Source: Rhodocaloribacter litoris (GTDB taxonomy: Bacteria > Bacteroidota > Rhodothermia > Rhodothermales > ISCAR-4553). From it: DNA of 64,000 nucleotides. Each line of letters starts with the position of its first letter. The stretch's first letter is position 1. Positions 28,376-35,182 of the stretch are shown in pieces. Under the pieces are notes generated by a model that saw nothing but the letters and a program-made list of their open reading frames with translations, was not told the origin of the DNA and did not search any database. The position numbers and the translations under genes are program-made. The DNA lies in assembly GCF_011682235.2 (NCBI RefSeq), contig NZ_CP076718.1, forward strand, positions 2,786,622 to 2,850,621, written 5' to 3'.

Positions 28376-28732
28376 TCACGCCGGCACCACGGGCGTGACG
28401 GCCGCCGTGTCTTCCTCGCCGGTCCGGATGCGGTATATCTTTTCGACCGGCAGGACGAAGATTTTGCCGTCGCCGACCTCGCCGGTGCGGGCCGCCGACA
28501 GGATGGCCTCGATGGTCGGTTCGACGAAGGGGTCGGAGACGCCGATGTCGAGCATCACCTTGTCGGTCAGTTCCATCCGGACGGTCGTGCCCCGGTAGGT
28601 TTCTTCGGTTTCACGTTCGCCACCGTGACCGCGCACGCGGGTGACGGTGAGGCCGCGCACTTCGGCGCGGAAGAGCGCCTTGAGCACGTCGTTGAGGCGC
28701 TCGGGGCGGATGATGGCTTTGATGAGTTTCAT
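28376..28732 (-). CDS. glnK: PII nitrogen regulatory protein (GlnK type)
   Basis: A 118-residue PII protein with the typical N terminus (MKLIKAIIRPERLNDVLKAL), a T-loop region around residues 36-54 (RGHGGERETEETYRGTT) and the C-terminal signature GEVGDGKIFVLPVEKIYRIRTGE. PII trimers bind ATP, ADP and 2-oxoglutarate and plug AmtB channels. The T-loop is charged and differs from the enterobacterial sequence. It follows amtB by 22 bases. The start at 28732 matches the family N terminus. Confidence 0.93.
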   Translation of the reverse strand: MKLIKAIIRPERLNDVLKALFRAEVRGLTVTRVRGHGGERETEETYRGTTVRMELTDKVMLDIGVSDPFVEPTIEAILSAARTGEVGDGKIFVLPVEKIYRIRTGEEDTAAVTPVVPA

Positions 28733-28754
28733 GGCTTTCGCAGGCGGGTTGGGT

Positions 28755-30116
28755 TCAGGCCATCGACGGGCTGACGGCGGGTGCGGGCACGCGCACGGGC
28801 CGGGTTTCTTCGTCCAGGAGCAGGAGGGCACCCTCGCCGTCCGTGTAGGCTTCCTCGCCGTGGTGGACGATGTCGAGGCCGAGCCGCTCCGCCTGGTCGT
28901 CGGTCCGGACGGCCATGACCAGGCTCAGGCCCTTGAGGATGGCAAAGGTCAGCGCACCGCTGTAGGCGAAGACGGCCACGACCGAGAGGGCCTGGATGCC
29001 GAACTGGGCGACGTTGCCGAAGAGCAGGCCGTCGGTGGCCCCGTTCCAGGCGGCGCTGGCGAAGACGCCGGTGAGCAATGCGCCGGTGATACCGCCGAGG
29101 CCGTGGGCGGCAAAGACGTCGAGCGAGTCGTCGAAGCGGGTGCGGGCGCGCCACTGGATGGCGAAGTAGCTGGGGAGGGCGGCCAGAGCCCCGAGCGCCA
29201 GCGCCGAAAGCGGCGAGACGAACCCGGCGGCCGGGGTCACGGCCACGAGCCCCACCACGATGGCCGTCGCCACGCCGACCGCCGTGATCTTGCCCGTGCG
29301 GAGGTGGTCCAGGGCCGTCCACACCACCAGCGTTGCCGCCGGAGCCAGCAACGTGTTGACGAAGGCCAGGCCGGCGGTGCCGTTCGAGGCCAGGGCACTG
29401 CCGCCGTTGAAGCCGAACCAGCCGAACCAGAGCAACCCGGCGCCCAGCAGCACGAACGGAACGTGGTGCGGCAGGAGCGCCTGCCGGCCGTAGTCCTTGC
29501 GCGGGCCCAGGAAGAGCGCCGCCGCCACGGCCGCTGCGCCCGCGTTGATGTGCACGACGGCCCCGCCGGCGAAGTCCAGCGCACCGAGCTCGCCCAGCCA
29601 GCCGCCGCCCCACACCCAGTGACATACCGGTGCATAAACGAACAGCACCCAGAGCCCGACGAAGGCCACATAGGCCGGGAACCGCATCCGTTCCACGACG
29701 GCCCCCGAGATCAGTGCCACGGTGATGATGGCAAAGGTGCCCTGGAACGCCATGAACAGCAGGTGGGGGATCGACCCGCTGGCCTCCAGGCCCACCCCGC
29801 TCAGCAACGCCATCGACAGGTCGCCGAGCCAGGCCGTACCCGATCCGAAGGCCAGCGAGTAGCCGAGCAGGGCCCACAGGACCCCCGCCACGCCGAGGGC
29901 GATGAAGCTCATCATCATCGTGTTCAGGGCGTTCTTGGCCCGCACCAGCCCGCCGTAGAAAAAGGCCAGCGCCGGGGTCATCAGCAACACCAGCGCCGTC
30001 GAAACCAGCAGCCAGGCCGTGTCCGGGGCCGAAATTGCAGCAGCGGCTTCCTGGGCCCGGGCGACCGGAACGCCCAGGAAGAACAGGGCGGGAAGGCAGA
30101 TGAACCGTCGTCTCAT
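28755..30116 (-). CDS. amtB: Ammonium transporter
   Basis: A 453-residue Amt/Rh-family channel with a signal-like first segment and eleven predicted membrane helices. Recognisable motifs are DTAWLLVSTALVLLMTPALAFFYGGLVRAKN, shown here in part as ALAFFYGGLVRAKN, and FNGGSAL, with the conserved pore histidines in DFAGGAVVHINAG and in AAHGLGGITGAL. It moves ammonia/ammonium and is regulated by the PII protein encoded just after it. A strong promoter lies 48 bases upstream. Confidence 0.95.
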   Translation of the reverse strand: MRRRFICLPALFFLGVPVARAQEAAAAISAPDTAWLLVSTALVLLMTPALAFFYGGLVRAKNALNTMMMSFIALGVAGVLWALLGYSLAFGSGTAWLGDLSMALLSGVGLEASGSIPHLLFMAFQGTFAIITVALISGAVVERMRFPAYVAFVGLWVLFVYAPVCHWVWGGGWLGELGALDFAGGAVVHINAGAAAVAAALFLGPRKDYGRQALLPHHVPFVLLGAGLLWFGWFGFNGGSALASNGTAGLAFVNTLLAPAATLVVWTALDHLRTGKITAVGVATAIVVGLVAVTPAAGFVSPLSALALGALAALPSYFAIQWRARTRFDDSLDVFAAHGLGGITGALLTGVFASAAWNGATDGLLFGNVAQFGIQALSVVAVFAYSGALTFAILKGLSLVMAVRTDDQAERLGLDIVHHGEEAYTDGEGALLLLDEETRPVRVPAPAVSPSMA

Positions 30117-30343: not shown

Positions 30344-30946
30344 ATGGAGAAGCCCATGCCCGGTCCCATCGACCTGCATCGACTGCAAGCCTTTTTTGAC
30401 CCGGAAGACATCGGGTGGAAACCCATCGCCGTCTCGAAGAAGACCGGCAAGGCCCTGGTGGCCGCCTATGTGACGAACCGCGCCATCATGGACCGGCTCG
30501 ATAGCGTATGCGGCCCCGAAAACTGGCGCAACGAGTTCGTCTCGGGACCGGAGGGCGGGGTCCTGTGCGGCCTCTCGATCCGTATCGTGCGGGAAGACGG
30601 CACGGCGGAGTGGGTGACGAAATGGGACGGCGCCGAGAATACGGACGTGGAGCCGGTCAAGGGCGGCCTCTCGTCGAGTATGCGCCGGGCGGCCGTGCAG
30701 TGGGGCATCGGGCGGTATCTCTACGACCTGCCCTCGCAGTGGGTATCCGTGGACGAGCGGGGGCGCATCACGCAGACGCCGCCTATCCCCCCGGAATTCC
30801 GGCCCCGATCCTCCGGCGACGACCCGGCTCCCGGCGTGCGGTCGGAGGCTTCGCCTTCGGACGGGGACGCCTCCACTCCCCGGCGTGTCCGGCCCCGGGA
30901 CCCCGAAGCGGCCCGCTATTTCATGCCCCGGCAGGTCAAATCCTGA
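30344..30946 (+). CDS. Rad52/22-like DNA repair protein
   Basis: A 200-residue protein whose first ~140 residues resemble the Rad52/22 single-strand annealing domain, with WKPIAVSKKTGKALVAAYVTNRAIMDRLD and the well-conserved SSSMRRAAVQWGIGRYLYDLP shown in part as AVQWGIGRYLYDLP. The tail (about 145-200) is proline/serine/arginine-rich and probably disordered. Such proteins anneal single strands in recombination and are common in phages and some bacterial chromosomes. No phage genes flank it. The start at 30344 was chosen; 30356 is possible. Confidence 0.75.
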   Translation: MEKPMPGPIDLHRLQAFFDPEDIGWKPIAVSKKTGKALVAAYVTNRAIMDRLDSVCGPENWRNEFVSGPEGGVLCGLSIRIVREDGTAEWVTKWDGAENTDVEPVKGGLSSSMRRAAVQWGIGRYLYDLPSQWVSVDERGRITQTPPIPPEFRPRSSGDDPAPGVRSEASPSDGDASTPRRVRPRDPEAARYFMPRQVKS

Positions 30947-31891: not shown

Positions 31892-31913
31892 TTCTTCCCG
31901 GGGAAGAACTTTT
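31892..31913 (+). terminator. Probable terminator after the YbjN-like gene
   Basis: A six-base stem TTCTTC/GAAGAA (31892-31897 with 31903-31908) around CCGGG, followed by CTTTT. A second palindrome CCGTCCCGGGACGG precedes it. The T tract is short, so the call is moderate. It would separate the YbjN-like gene from the cysteine leader. Confidence 0.5.
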
Positions 31914-31986
31914 GGAAAGACCGGTCGTAGATTATGCCCGGTTTGCCCGATTCCCCTTACCTGAACAGTTCTATTTTCCATACGCG

Positions 31987-32085
31987 ATGCCTTTCCTCCG
32001 GACCATCCTGGCCTGCTGTTGTGCGATGTGTTGTTGTGCCCCCGGCCGGAGGGGAGGCGCGGTGACGCCGTCGCGATACGGATAG
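31987..32085 (+). CDS. Cysteine-rich leader peptide of the cysM operon
   Basis: A 32-codon open frame, ATG at 31987 to TAG at 32083. It starts MPFLRTILA and then reads CCC-AM-CCC: codons 10-12 and 15-17 are all cysteine (TGC TGT TGT, then TGT TGT TGT), followed by a Gly/Arg-rich end. Cysteine is one of the rarest amino acids, so six in eight codons is very unlikely by chance. It lies 77 bases before a cysteine synthase gene and directly ahead of an intrinsic terminator. Its role would be to sense charged tRNA-Cys by ribosome progress, not to act as a protein. No strong Shine-Dalgarno is visible and a TATTTT element at 31972 could make the transcript nearly leaderless. Confidence 0.82.
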   Translation: MPFLRTILACCCAMCCCAPGRRGGAVTPSRYG

Positions 32086-32157
32086 GCCCGGAAAGCTGAC
32101 GATCGCGCTCACATTGCTGCCAGTGCCCCTCCCGGATTGCCGTGAGGGGCTTTTTTT
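31990..32157 (+). promoter_or_regulatory. Cysteine-responsive transcription attenuator
   Basis: Three competing stems can be drawn. Region 1 (31990-32001, CCTTTCCTCCGG) pairs fully with region 2 (32046-32057, CCGGAGGGGAGG) with two G-U pairs, holding all six Cys codons in the loop. Region 2 (32046-32054) can instead pair with region 3 (32126-32135, CCCCTCCCGG) with one bulge. Region 3 also forms the terminator with region 4 (32144-32150). A ribosome stalled on Cys codons would cover region 1, free region 2 to capture region 3 and allow read-through; otherwise 1:2 and the terminator form. The logic matches classic amino-acid attenuators. Confidence 0.8.
32125..32157 (+). terminator. Intrinsic terminator of the attenuator
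   Basis: Stem GCCCCTC/GAGGGGC (32125-32131 with 32144-32150), one C-T mismatch, then CGG/CCG (32133-32135 with 32140-32142) and an ATTG loop, followed by seven T (32151-32157). The cysM ATG begins five bases later, so the terminator can only serve to control the operon. Confidence 0.9.
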
Positions 32158-32162
32158 GTTCC

Positions 32163-33140
32163 ATGACCCAGTCTCTGATGGAAGGCACACACGTTGATGT
32201 TCTGGCTTCCCCGGCCGGACGCGCCGGGGCGTTGCGTAACGGCGTGCTGCGCCGCATCGGGCGGACGCCGCTCGTCCGGCTGCGGCGGGTGACGGCGCAC
32301 CTGCCCGAGACGGTGGCCGTCTATGCGAAGGCCGAGCACCTCAACCCGGGCGGTTCGGTCAAGGACCGGGCGGCGCTGGGCATGATCCGGGACGGGCTGC
32401 GCCGCGGGGCCCTCACGCCGGGCAAAACGCTCATCGACGCCACGAGCGGCAACACCGGCATCGCCTACGCCATGATCGGGGCGGCCCTGGGGATCCCGGT
32501 GACGCTGGCGCTGCCCGCCAACGCCTCCGCGGAACGGAAGCGGATCCTGGCCGCCTATGGCGTGGACCTGATCCTGACCGACCCGCTGGAGGGCACCGAC
32601 GGGGCGCAGCGTTACGTGCGCGAGCGCGTCGCCGCCGAGCCCGACCGCTATTTCTACCCCGACCAGTACAACAACGACGCCAACTGGCGGGCGCACGCGC
32701 GCACCACCGGGGTCGAGATCCTCGAACAGACGCGCCACCGCGTCACGCACTTCGTCGCCGGGCTGGGCACGACGGGCACCTTCACCGGCGTCACGCGGCG
32801 CCTCAAGGCGTTCGACCCCGCCATCCGCTGCTTCTCCGTCCAGCCGGACAGCCCGCTGCACGGTATGGAAGGGCTCAAGCACATGGAGACGGCCCTCGTG
32901 CCGGGCATCTACGACCCGGCGCTGGCCGACGACGACCTGCGGGTGCAGACGGAGGAGGCCTATGCCATGACGCGTCGCCTGGCCCGGGAGGAAGGGCTCC
33001 TCGTGGGCATCTCCTCCGGGGCCAACGTGGCGGCGGCCCTCCGCGTGGCCGAGACGCTCCGCGAGGGCGTCGTCGTGACGATCCTGTGCGACACCGGTAC
33101 CCGGTATCTGAGCGATCCATTCTGGAACGAAACGCTGTGA
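32163..33140 (+). CDS. cysM: Cysteine synthase, CysM type (PLP-dependent)
   Basis: A 325-residue fold-type II PLP enzyme. The lysine that binds PLP is in LNPGGSVKDRAAL (about residue 63), the phosphate loop is GLGTTGTFTG, and the substrate loop is ATSGNTGIA. With CysO-type carriers this enzyme joins an activated serine (O-phosphoserine in mycobacteria) to protein-bound sulfide. The three following genes encode that carrier system, so a CysM role is favoured over sulfide-dependent CysK. Start at 32163, immediately after the attenuator; 32178 is an alternative. Confidence 0.9.
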   Translation: MTQSLMEGTHVDVLASPAGRAGALRNGVLRRIGRTPLVRLRRVTAHLPETVAVYAKAEHLNPGGSVKDRAALGMIRDGLRRGALTPGKTLIDATSGNTGIAYAMIGAALGIPVTLALPANASAERKRILAAYGVDLILTDPLEGTDGAQRYVRERVAAEPDRYFYPDQYNNDANWRAHARTTGVEILEQTRHRVTHFVAGLGTTGTFTGVTRRLKAFDPAIRCFSVQPDSPLHGMEGLKHMETALVPGIYDPALADDDLRVQTEEAYAMTRRLAREEGLLVGISSGANVAAALRVAETLREGVVVTILCDTGTRYLSDPFWNETL

Positions 33141-33148
33141 GGCCATCC

Positions 33149-33601
33149 ATGCTGACCCATACCGCCGTCCTCGACGCGATCCGGGAGCACGGGCGCGACA
33201 CGTACCCGGAGGAATGCTGCGGCTTCCTGCTGGGCACCTTCGCGCCGGAGGGCAACCGGGTGGTGGCCGTGCAACGCGTGCCCAACCGGCGGGCCGAGCA
33301 CCGCGAGCGCCGTTATACCATCGCGCCGGAGGACTACCGCCACGCCGAGCGGGCCGCCCGGGGCCTGGGCCTCGACGTCGTCGGCTTCTACCATTCCCAC
33401 CCGGACCACCCCGCCCGGCCCTCGGCCACCGACCTGGCCGAAGCCACCTTCCCCGGCTATACGTACGTGATCGTCGCCGTCCGCGACGGCGTCCCCGCCG
33501 ACCTGACGGCCTGGTCCCTCGCCCCGGACCGCTCCCGGTTCCTCCCCGAGGCGATCACCGTCGACGACGAAGCCCTGCGTGCGGCACAGGCCGAAGGATG
33601 A
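33149..33601 (+). CDS. mec: JAMM/MPN+ metalloprotease (Mec type)
   Basis: A 150-residue JAB1/MPN/Mov34 metalloenzyme. The zinc motif is complete: Glu in YPEECCGFLLG and HSHPDHPARPSATD (His, His and Asp ligands, with the conserved Ser). In Mycobacterium the homologue Mec+ cuts cysteine off the CysO-cysteine adduct; related JAMM proteins trim C-terminal residues from sulfur carriers. Both activities would be useful here, since the carrier ends in GGRG. It starts 8 bases after cysM; a poor-SD ATG at 33149 begins the domain. Confidence 0.9.
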   Translation: MLTHTAVLDAIREHGRDTYPEECCGFLLGTFAPEGNRVVAVQRVPNRRAEHRERRYTIAPEDYRHAERAARGLGLDVVGFYHSHPDHPARPSATDLAEATFPGYTYVIVAVRDGVPADLTAWSLAPDRSRFLPEAITVDDEALRAAQAEG

Positions 33602-33658: not shown

Positions 33659-33955
33659 ATGAGCACGACGCAGACCCTGACCGCGATCCACATCCCGACG
33701 CCGCTGCGGGCGTTCACCGGCAACCAGGCGACCGTGGAGGTGGCCGGCGAGACCGTGCGTGAGGCGCTGGCCGACCTCGTCGCCCGGCACCCGGCGCTGA
33801 AGAACCACCTGTTCGACGAGGCGGGCCGGCTCCGCTCGTTCGTCAACGTGTACGTCGGCGACGAGGACATCCGCTACCTCGACGGCCCGGCGACCGCCCT
33901 CAAGCCCGGCGACACGCTCTCCATCGTCCCGTCCATCGCCGGGGGGCGCGGGTGA
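33659..33955 (+). CDS. cysO: CysO/MoaD-like sulfur-carrier protein
   Basis: A 98-residue ubiquitin-fold carrier: TLTAIHIPTPLRAFTGNQATVEVAGETV at the start (given here in outline), and IVPSIAGGRG at the end. Active carriers end in Gly-Gly, which is adenylated and turned into a thiocarboxylate. Here two extra residues, Arg-Gly, follow the GG, so the protein appears to be made as a precursor. The neighbouring JAMM protease is the obvious candidate to remove them. Located between mec and the activating enzyme. Confidence 0.88.
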   Translation: MSTTQTLTAIHIPTPLRAFTGNQATVEVAGETVREALADLVARHPALKNHLFDEAGRLRSFVNVYVGDEDIRYLDGPATALKPGDTLSIVPSIAGGRG

Positions 33956-34003: not shown

Positions 34004-35182
34004 ATGGAAACCATCTCCGCTCCGAACGTGACGCTCTCGCCCGAGGAGGTGCGGCGCTACAGCCGCCACCTGATCCTGCCCGAGGTGGGGCTGGAGGGGC
34101 AGAAGAAACTCAAGGCCGCCTCGGTGCTGCTCATCGGTGCGGGCGGCCTCGGCTCGCCGCTGGCGCTCTACCTGGCCGCCGCCGGCGTGGGTCGCCTCGG
34201 CCTGGTCGACTTCGACGTGGTCGACGAGTCGAACCTGCAACGGCAGGTGCTCCACGGCACGAAGGACGTCGGTCGCTCGAAGCTCGCCTCCGCCCGCGAG
34301 CGCATCCTCGACATCAACCCGCACGTGGAGGTGGAGACGTACGAGACGCGCCTCACCAGCGAGAACGCGCTCGACCTCATCGGGGCCTACGACCTGGTAG
34401 CCGACGGCACGGACAATTTCCCCACGCGCTACCTGGTCAACGACGCCTCGGTGCTCACCGGCACGCCGAACATGTACGCCTCCATCTTCCGCTTCGAGGG
34501 GCAGGTGTCGGTCTTCGGCGCGCCGGACGGGCCGTGCTACCGCTGCCTCTACCCCGAGCCGCCGCCGCCGGGGCTGGTGCCCTCGTGCGCCGAGGGCGGG
34601 GTGCTGGGCGTGCTGCCGGGTATCGTCGGGGCGCTGCAGGCCACCGAGGTCATCAAGTGGATCGTGGGCGCCGGGGAGCCGCTCGTGGGGCGGTTGCTCC
34701 TCTTCGACGCCCTCACGATGACGTTCCGCACGCTCAAGGTGCGCAAGAACCCGGACTGCCCGGTCTGCGGCACGCACCCGACCGTCACGGCGTTGATCGA
34801 CTACGAGGCGTTCTGCGGCATCCCGCAGGCCCGTGCTGCCGCGTCGGCCGAAGCGGACGCGGTGCCCGAGATCACCGTTACCGAGCTGAAGGCCCGCCTC
34901 GACCGCGGCGAGCGTCCCTTCATCCTCGACGTCCGGAAGCCGCACGAGTACGAGATCGCCAACCTGGGCGCGCCGCTCATCCCCGTCGATGAACTGGCCG
35001 ACCGCCTGGACGAACTCGCCCCGTACCGGGATCAGGAGATCATCGTGCACTGTCGCTCCGGCGCCCGCTCGGCCCGGGCCGTGAAGCTGTTGCGCGAGCA
35101 CGGCTTCCACGGGGCCGTCAACCTCAAGGGCGGCATCCTGGCCTGGAGCGACGAGGTCGACCCGGGCGTGCCGAAGTACTGA
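34004..35182 (+). CDS. MoeB/ThiF-type adenylyltransferase with rhodanese domain
   Basis: A 392-residue fusion. The E1-like ThiF domain (1-250) has the nucleotide loop GAGGLGSPLALYLAAAGVG, the D-x-D-N motif DFDVVDESNLQRQ, and zinc cysteines in CYRC and CPVCG. The C-terminal rhodanese domain (about 285-390) has the active Cys in VHCRSGARSARA. Such enzymes adenylate a carrier's C-terminal glycine and pass sulfur to it. In this operon the target is the CysO-like carrier, though it could also serve MoaD or ThiS. A TATCTTTC element at 33985 could be a weak internal promoter. Confidence 0.9.
   Translation: METISAPNVTLSPEEVRRYSRHLILPEVGLEGQKKLKAASVLLIGAGGLGSPLALYLAAAGVGRLGLVDFDVVDESNLQRQVLHGTKDVGRSKLASARERILDINPHVEVETYETRLTSENALDLIGAYDLVADGTDNFPTRYLVNDASVLTGTPNMYASIFRFEGQVSVFGAPDGPCYRCLYPEPPPPGLVPSCAEGGVLGVLPGIVGALQATEVIKWIVGAGEPLVGRLLLFDALTMTFRTLKVRKNPDCPVCGTHPTVTALIDYEAFCGIPQARAAASAEADAVPEITVTELKARLDRGERPFILDVRKPHEYEIANLGAPLIPVDELADRLDELAPYRDQEIIVHCRSGARSARAVKLLREHGFHGAVNLKGGILAWSDEVDPGVPKY

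Follow-up and report, generated by a model that had tools for sequence, protein, structure and literature searches.

Among the classical attenuators (trp, his, leu, thr, phe and ilv in proteobacteria; trp and ilvB in actinobacteria), a short ORF carrying codons for the product of the operon is followed by an antiterminator and a terminator ahead of the first gene. For cysteine, poly-Cys leaders without terminators were predicted in 2005 in Mycobacterium, P. acnes and B. longum (PMC1262725), and the mycobacterial ones were seen by ribosome profiling in 2015 (PMC4633059); Canestrari 2020 is cited for cysteine-responsive translational attenuators in M. smegmatis (PMC13236596, PMC9031893). Furthermore, a leader with Cys codons and an intrinsic terminator, uORFC-8-2, was proposed for cysS in Rhodobacterales (PMC8632094). 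With regard to the genes themselves, the mec-cysO-cysM operon of M. tuberculosis, together with moeZ, belongs to the regulon of the ECF sigma factor SigH (PMC4803200).

Here, we analyse the region upstream of cysM in a stretch of 64,000 nt from Rhodocaloribacter litoris (the window), a genome whose nearest relatives are Rhodothermales, and propose that it very probably (at roughly nine in ten) holds a ribosome-mediated transcription attenuator sensing charged tRNA-Cys. The arrangement of its parts is that of the classical attenuators. With the mycobacterial leaders it shares a short ORF that stands ahead of cysteine genes and contains a run of Cys codons, and with uORFC-8-2, the closest mechanistic precedent, Cys codons in a short ORF, a terminator thereafter and the same proposed logic (PMC8632094). 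The M. tuberculosis operon likewise comprises a JAMM peptidase, a carrier and CysM (with MoeZ encoded elsewhere) and depends on an ECF sigma factor (PMC4803200), which for the promoter candidate of the window is a likeness at the level of sigma-factor class.

The leader and its pairing regions

The elements between the upstream gene and cysM that make up the proposed device are as follows:

31987-32085, + strand: leader ORF of 32 codons, MPFLRTILACCCAMCCCAPGRRGGAVTPSRYG and a stop codon, from sequence and translation; a Cys-rich short ORF lies at the matching place in relatives
31990-32001, + strand: region 1, CCTTTCCTCCGG, strand of the predicted protector stem, able to pair with region 2; lineage-specific
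32014-32022, + strand: Cys codons 10-12 (TGC TGT TGT), predicted stall site from translation and simulated folds
32029-32037, + strand: Cys codons 15-17 (TGT TGT TGT), predicted stall site from translation and simulated folds
32045-32064, + strand: region 2, antiterminator strand, starting 7 nt past the last Cys codon; covaries with region 3 across relatives
32125-32135, + strand: region 3, the 5' arm of the terminator, from the terminator fold and covariation
32125-32157, + strand: intrinsic terminator, hairpin 32125-32150 and seven T at 32151-32157; nearly all relatives that have a Cys leader carry an equivalent terminator

The earlier note, which was made from the letters of the window, had already described most of this anatomy, and its reading of the leader (32 codons, Cys at codons 10-12 and 15-17) is exact to the base. 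The other parts that it named are present as well, namely a possible pairing of regions 1 and 2 over 12 bases, two of them G-U (region 2 part 32046-32057, CCGGAGGGGAGG), a possible pairing of region 2 with region 3 over 32126-32135, and a terminator whose seven T end five nt before cysM. The hairpin (GCCCCTCCCGG-ATTG-CCGTGAGGGGC) has one mismatch and a predicted energy of -18.6 kcal/mol; it ends 12 nt upstream of the cysM ATG at 32163, from which the T tract is separated by GTTCC. The Cys run lies in the middle of the ORF, with the last Cys 15 codons before the stop codon, which itself lies about 25 nt beyond region 2.

The pattern (TGY)3-N6-(TGY)3 occurs once in the window, where shuffles give an expectation of 0.00. 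A looser form, (TGY)3-N6-(TGY)2, has 13 matches in the 4.5-Mb genome (one contig), and only one of these, the present leader, lies in a short ORF with two Cys runs. No convincing second target of a poly-Cys leader was found in this genome and five others, which were searched with narrow patterns and the matches partly inspected.

Taken alone, the pairings in the window are marginal against dinucleotide shuffles (p 0.060 for regions 1 and 2, p 0.086 for regions 2 and 3) because GC-rich DNA pairs easily, and the case therefore rests on comparative data. The predicted protector stem of regions 1 and 2 is clear in the window, long in the Rhodothermus-like group and absent in many relatives; since its pairing was mostly not significant against shuffles across the leaders, we do not claim it as a general feature.

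The downstream operon

Behind the terminator follow four genes in the same orientation:

32163-33140, + strand: cysM, cysteine synthase B type (TIGR01138, 361.6 bits, E 3e-108, below the equivalog cut-off of 394.2)
33149-33601, + strand: JAMM/Prok-JAB peptidase of the Mec+ type (PF14464, E 2e-26), adjoining cysM in relatives
33659-33955, + strand: sulfur carrier of the ThiS/MoaD fold, CysO type, C-terminus AGGRG (PF02597, NF041918)
34004-35182, + strand: MoeZ/MoeB-like adenylyltransferase with a rhodanese domain (PF00899, PF00581, NF005646)

By their profile matches, these four genes are the putative gene set of the CysO-type cysteine pathway, with the MoeZ-type protein, like CysM, scoring below its strict equivalog cut-off. 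The earlier claim of a CysO-type operon, in which the amino acid sensed by the leader is the product of the genes behind it, thus agrees with these matches. No exposed C-terminal Gly-Gly was found on the carrier; as the protein ends in AGGRG and not in the Gly-Gly needed for activation, two residues would need to be removed first, and the adjacent JAMM peptidase may have to trim this end.

Elsewhere in the window, a Rad52/Rad22-family protein (PF04098, E 5e-17) is encoded at 30344-30946, and near it lie an ammonium-transporter-like ORF (28755-30116) and a P-II-like ORF (28376-28831), both judged by eye.

Distribution among relatives

Orthologues of cysM were collected across the order (41 of 114 genomes), the phylum and named genomes (80 loci), which gave 132 distinct upstream regions and included Roseithermus and a Salinivenus MAG. 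With a poly-Cys ORF defined as a short ORF with at least five Cys in eight residues, 36 of the 132 loci carried one upstream of cysM, compared with one of 1932 control windows of the same size and none of the 132 reverse strands. Runs of other residues upstream of cysM showed no enrichment comparable to that of Cys; the few matches to Leu, Val and Ala runs (4-5 of 42 Rhodothermales loci each) may come from other frames of TGT/TGC repeats, where such runs would be expected. The leader peptides share little beyond the Cys run (MLSSVHRCCCCCCPHP..., MRFITRCCCCCCPCCC..., MAPEAVRCRCWCRCC..., MINRAVYACCCCRIC..., MKLTRLKKQICCCCC...), and we therefore regard them as leader peptides and not as functional proteins.

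Of about 60 loci with a Cys leader, 48 had a terminator behind the leader and ahead of cysM, as compared to at most 9 of the 72 remaining loci, and in 45 of these 48 the JAMM, carrier and MoeZ genes follow downstream. The remaining 84 of the 132 loci were not counted as having both parts, and 39 of the 48 leaders with both parts come from one order and are not independent. On the CysM tree, these 39 occupy all but two of the 41 Rhodothermales rows; the Cys runs, whose conservation the earlier note had made decisive, are hence kept here while the rest of the peptide is not. The same pair of leader and terminator is also found in Ignavibacteriota, Bacteroidota-type genomes, Pyrinomonadaceae and another acidobacterium, with a single weak case in Chloroflexota. 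The tree requires ten changes of state, and well-supported branches force five or more of these, so that the leader was gained or lost several times. Among these loci, the device is near-universal in one order and scattered elsewhere.

Two Rhodothermales of one family (L024 and L025) have cysM but neither a convincing Cys leader nor a convincing terminator, and appear to have lost both. In two acidobacterial loci (L067 and L079), 16 nt and no terminator separate the end of the poly-Cys ORF from the cysM match, and this ORF overlaps the likely cysM start codon in a different frame, possibly a translational version of the sensor. An acidobacterial genome, the one that also holds L045, carries at L169 the short ORF MVGTITSFGGGGGACRCCCCCWCCCCC, behind which no cysteine gene is apparent.

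Loci such as L067 and L079 bear on the question of whether the leader in the window might act, as in mycobacteria, on translation, with the Cys-rich ORF controlling ribosome access to cysM and the hairpin merely hiding the start site. Mycobacterial poly-Cys leaders are described as translational in papers citing Canestrari 2020 (PMC13236596, PMC9031893), the hairpin in the window ends within a dozen nucleotides of the cysM start, and the Cys ORFs of L067, L079 and L104 adjoin or overlap the cysM start without a terminator. However, nearly all relatives keep the U tract and terminator, at distances upstream of the cysM match that are mostly in the tens of nt and reach about 240 nt, too far away to hide a start codon, which makes translational control unlikely as the explanation of the window.

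Covariation, anatomy and codon choice

Across the leaders, the median gap from the last Cys codon to region 2 is 5.5 nt, and the antiterminator also engages about 80 % of the 5' positions that are paired in the terminator. One core position, taken in the order region 2, region 3 and region 4 (the 3' arm of the terminator), reads G, C, G in 14 leaders, A, T, A in 14 and G, T, A in 3; such joint changes on three strands would be expected of a region 3 that has to pair with each of its two partners. This three-way exchange across families is a stronger covariation test than one genus-level group. Within the Rhodothermus-like group, one antiterminator pair is exchanged between U-A and C-G, and 97.8 % of cells in the antiterminator are paired as compared to 42-58 % in slid controls; its covariation was reached by 92 of 500 shuffles, the six close sequences being too shallow. 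Covariation of the stems, proposed earlier as a check, is thus borne out for regions 2, 3 and 4.

The hairpin sits between two genes on the same strand and might conceivably be the terminator of the upstream YbjN-domain gene, with the Cys-rich ORF arising by chance or encoding a structural (e. g., metal-binding) peptide. This is very improbable in view of the joint occurrence of terminator and Cys ORF upstream of cysM across phyla, the co-variation and the short, fixed gap between the Cys codons and region 2, and the peptide, unlike a functional small protein, is not conserved outside its Cys run.

The common features across relatives are the Cys run, region 2 directly behind it and the terminator. 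That only these are constant in a short leader also argues against control of the terminator by a metabolite-binding riboswitch or T-box with an incidental Cys ORF. S-box and T-box elements are generally known to control sulfur genes in other phyla (cited in PMC1262725), yet searches of the window and 12 relatives against Rfam 15 at the gathering score returned no family match save one tRNA, and we consider this explanation the least probable of all.

Codon choice sets the leaders apart from the genes that they precede. Their 274 Cys codons comprise 203 TGT and 71 TGC, whereas cysM itself uses 20 TGT and 106 TGC (126 in total) at these loci, an opposite bias that would be expected if selection acts separately on the leader codons. 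A preference for TGT, which is avoided elsewhere, fits a stall site; it may also keep the stretch unstructured.

Simulated folding with a ribosome

For the 48 leaders with both parts, folding was simulated with the transcript cut just after region 3 and a ribosome footprint placed at each codon in turn. A ribosome on the Cys codons left region 3 mostly sequestered, and one placed a few codons further on left it mostly free. The mean drop was 0.32 as compared to 0.03 for controls in which the stretch from the Cys codons to the terminator, with region 2 in it, was shuffled (median z 3.1; Wilcoxon p 7e-11, n = 48, a value that overstates independence as the leaders are related). Drops above 0.25 were obtained for 31 of the 48 leaders versus 4.7 % of shuffles. 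For the window, the drop was 0.31, which 3 % of shuffles equalled or exceeded, and the antiterminator was strongest (0.7-0.88) with stalls at codons 6-11, compared with 0.29 with no ribosome, a low value that the predicted protector stem explains. The closest relative (L003) showed almost no drop, and in many relatives an untranslated leader is predicted to antiterminate.

In the equilibrium fold of the full leader, the terminator outcompetes the antiterminator in the window, and complete leaders show no switch at equilibrium in most cases because the terminator is locally too stable. The switch must therefore be kinetic, with kinetics represented in our simulation by transcript truncation alone.

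A candidate promoter

Upstream of the leader lies a further conserved motif:

31906-31929, + strand: candidate ECF-type promoter, -35 GAACTT at 31906-31911, 14-nt spacer, -10 CGTA at 31926-31929; motif conserved upstream of leaders

GAAC-N16-CGT is the spacing of ECF-type promoters. With fixed spacing, GAACTT-N14-[CT]GT precedes 10 of 60 Cys-leader ORFs and none of 965 control windows; the window holds one match where 0.31 would be expected, about 50 nt ahead of the leader start codon. A generic scan for terminators and promoters picked up neither this candidate nor the terminator, because the promoter candidate does not resemble a sigma-70 promoter and the terminator stem contains a mismatch. 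The motif suggests that a dedicated sigma factor may serve the Rhodothermales cysteine operon, and the predicted promoter assignment makes for a suggestive ECF parallel with the M. tuberculosis operon.

GAACTT-N14-CGT is also present upstream of the leader in L003-L009, L011 and L026.

Proposed mechanism

On the proposed model, transcription would start about 50 nt upstream of the leader ORF. When Cys-tRNA is scarce, the ribosome would stall at the six Cys codons, covering region 1 and leaving region 2 free; the latter would then capture region 3, and RNA polymerase would read on into cysM-JAMM-cysO-moeZ. With plentiful Cys-tRNA, the ribosome would pass over region 2, or regions 1 and 2 would re-form their stem behind it, such that region 3 would be free to enter the hairpin and transcription would stop before cysM. 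Given the distance from region 2 to the leader stop codon, the terminator would be freed by one of these two routes and not by a ribosome parked at the stop.

The computation shows which parts are present, that they are conserved across phyla, that the strands co-vary and that the fold depends on where the ribosome stands; from this we infer where transcription starts, that the leader is translated, that ribosomes stall on it, that transcription terminates and that the operon responds to cysteine. Every part of a classic attenuator had been claimed for this locus at the outset: the leader, the terminator and, by covariation and simulated folds, a ribosome-dependent antiterminator have stood up, and the predicted protector stem has turned out to be lineage-specific.

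More tentatively, and with less than even odds, the leaders may descend from an old Cys-sensing ORF that spread over CysO-type operons of Rhodothermota, Ignavibacteriota, Acidobacteriota and perhaps Chloroflexota with different outputs, that is, termination in most cases and translational coupling or start overlap in L067 and L079 (Acidobacteriota) and L104 (Ignavibacteriota). The ECF promoter of Rhodothermales would then be stacked upon it, combining stress and cysteine control.

Comparison with known systems

As a concrete candidate, with operon and codons named, for how these phyla may sense cysteine, the leader would extend leader-peptide attenuation to groups for which the literature consulted describes little beyond unverified short ORFs. 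It furthermore indicates that poly-Cys leaders are not peculiar to mycobacteria; it would place the CysO-type pathway under cysteine feedback and perhaps, as in M. tuberculosis, link this pathway to an ECF sigma factor. A Cys attenuator for cysM or for these phyla was not found described in the open-licence literature, which is not proof of novelty. The earlier claim to novelty accordingly holds for cysM and these phyla and not for the kind of device, since this had already been proposed for Rhodobacterales cysS (PMC8632094).

In comparison with the classical attenuators, cysteine is the amino acid sensed here, the hosts are Rhodothermota and relatives as well as Acidobacteriota, and the protector stem is not universal. 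In the mycobacterial leaders, as summarised in the papers citing them, the Cys run stands close to the stop codon, a conserved terminator is lacking, the mRNAs are leaderless and the output is translational, whereas in the window the run lies mid-ORF, a terminator follows and the start codon is well downstream of the promoter candidate, which places this leader outside the mycobacterial type. In M. tuberculosis, the gene order of mec-cysO-cysM differs, and a Cys attenuator is not mentioned for it in the literature searched. uORFC-8-2 has two Cys codons at positions 14-15 and is confined to cysS and to Rhodobacterales (PMC8632094); the leaders described here have between three and nine Cys, precede cysM and belong to other phyla, and that of the window falls outside the definition of uORFC-8-2. 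The Cys-sensing attenuator is thus a type already known, of which the present locus would be an example that is well supported by comparison and apparently widely distributed.
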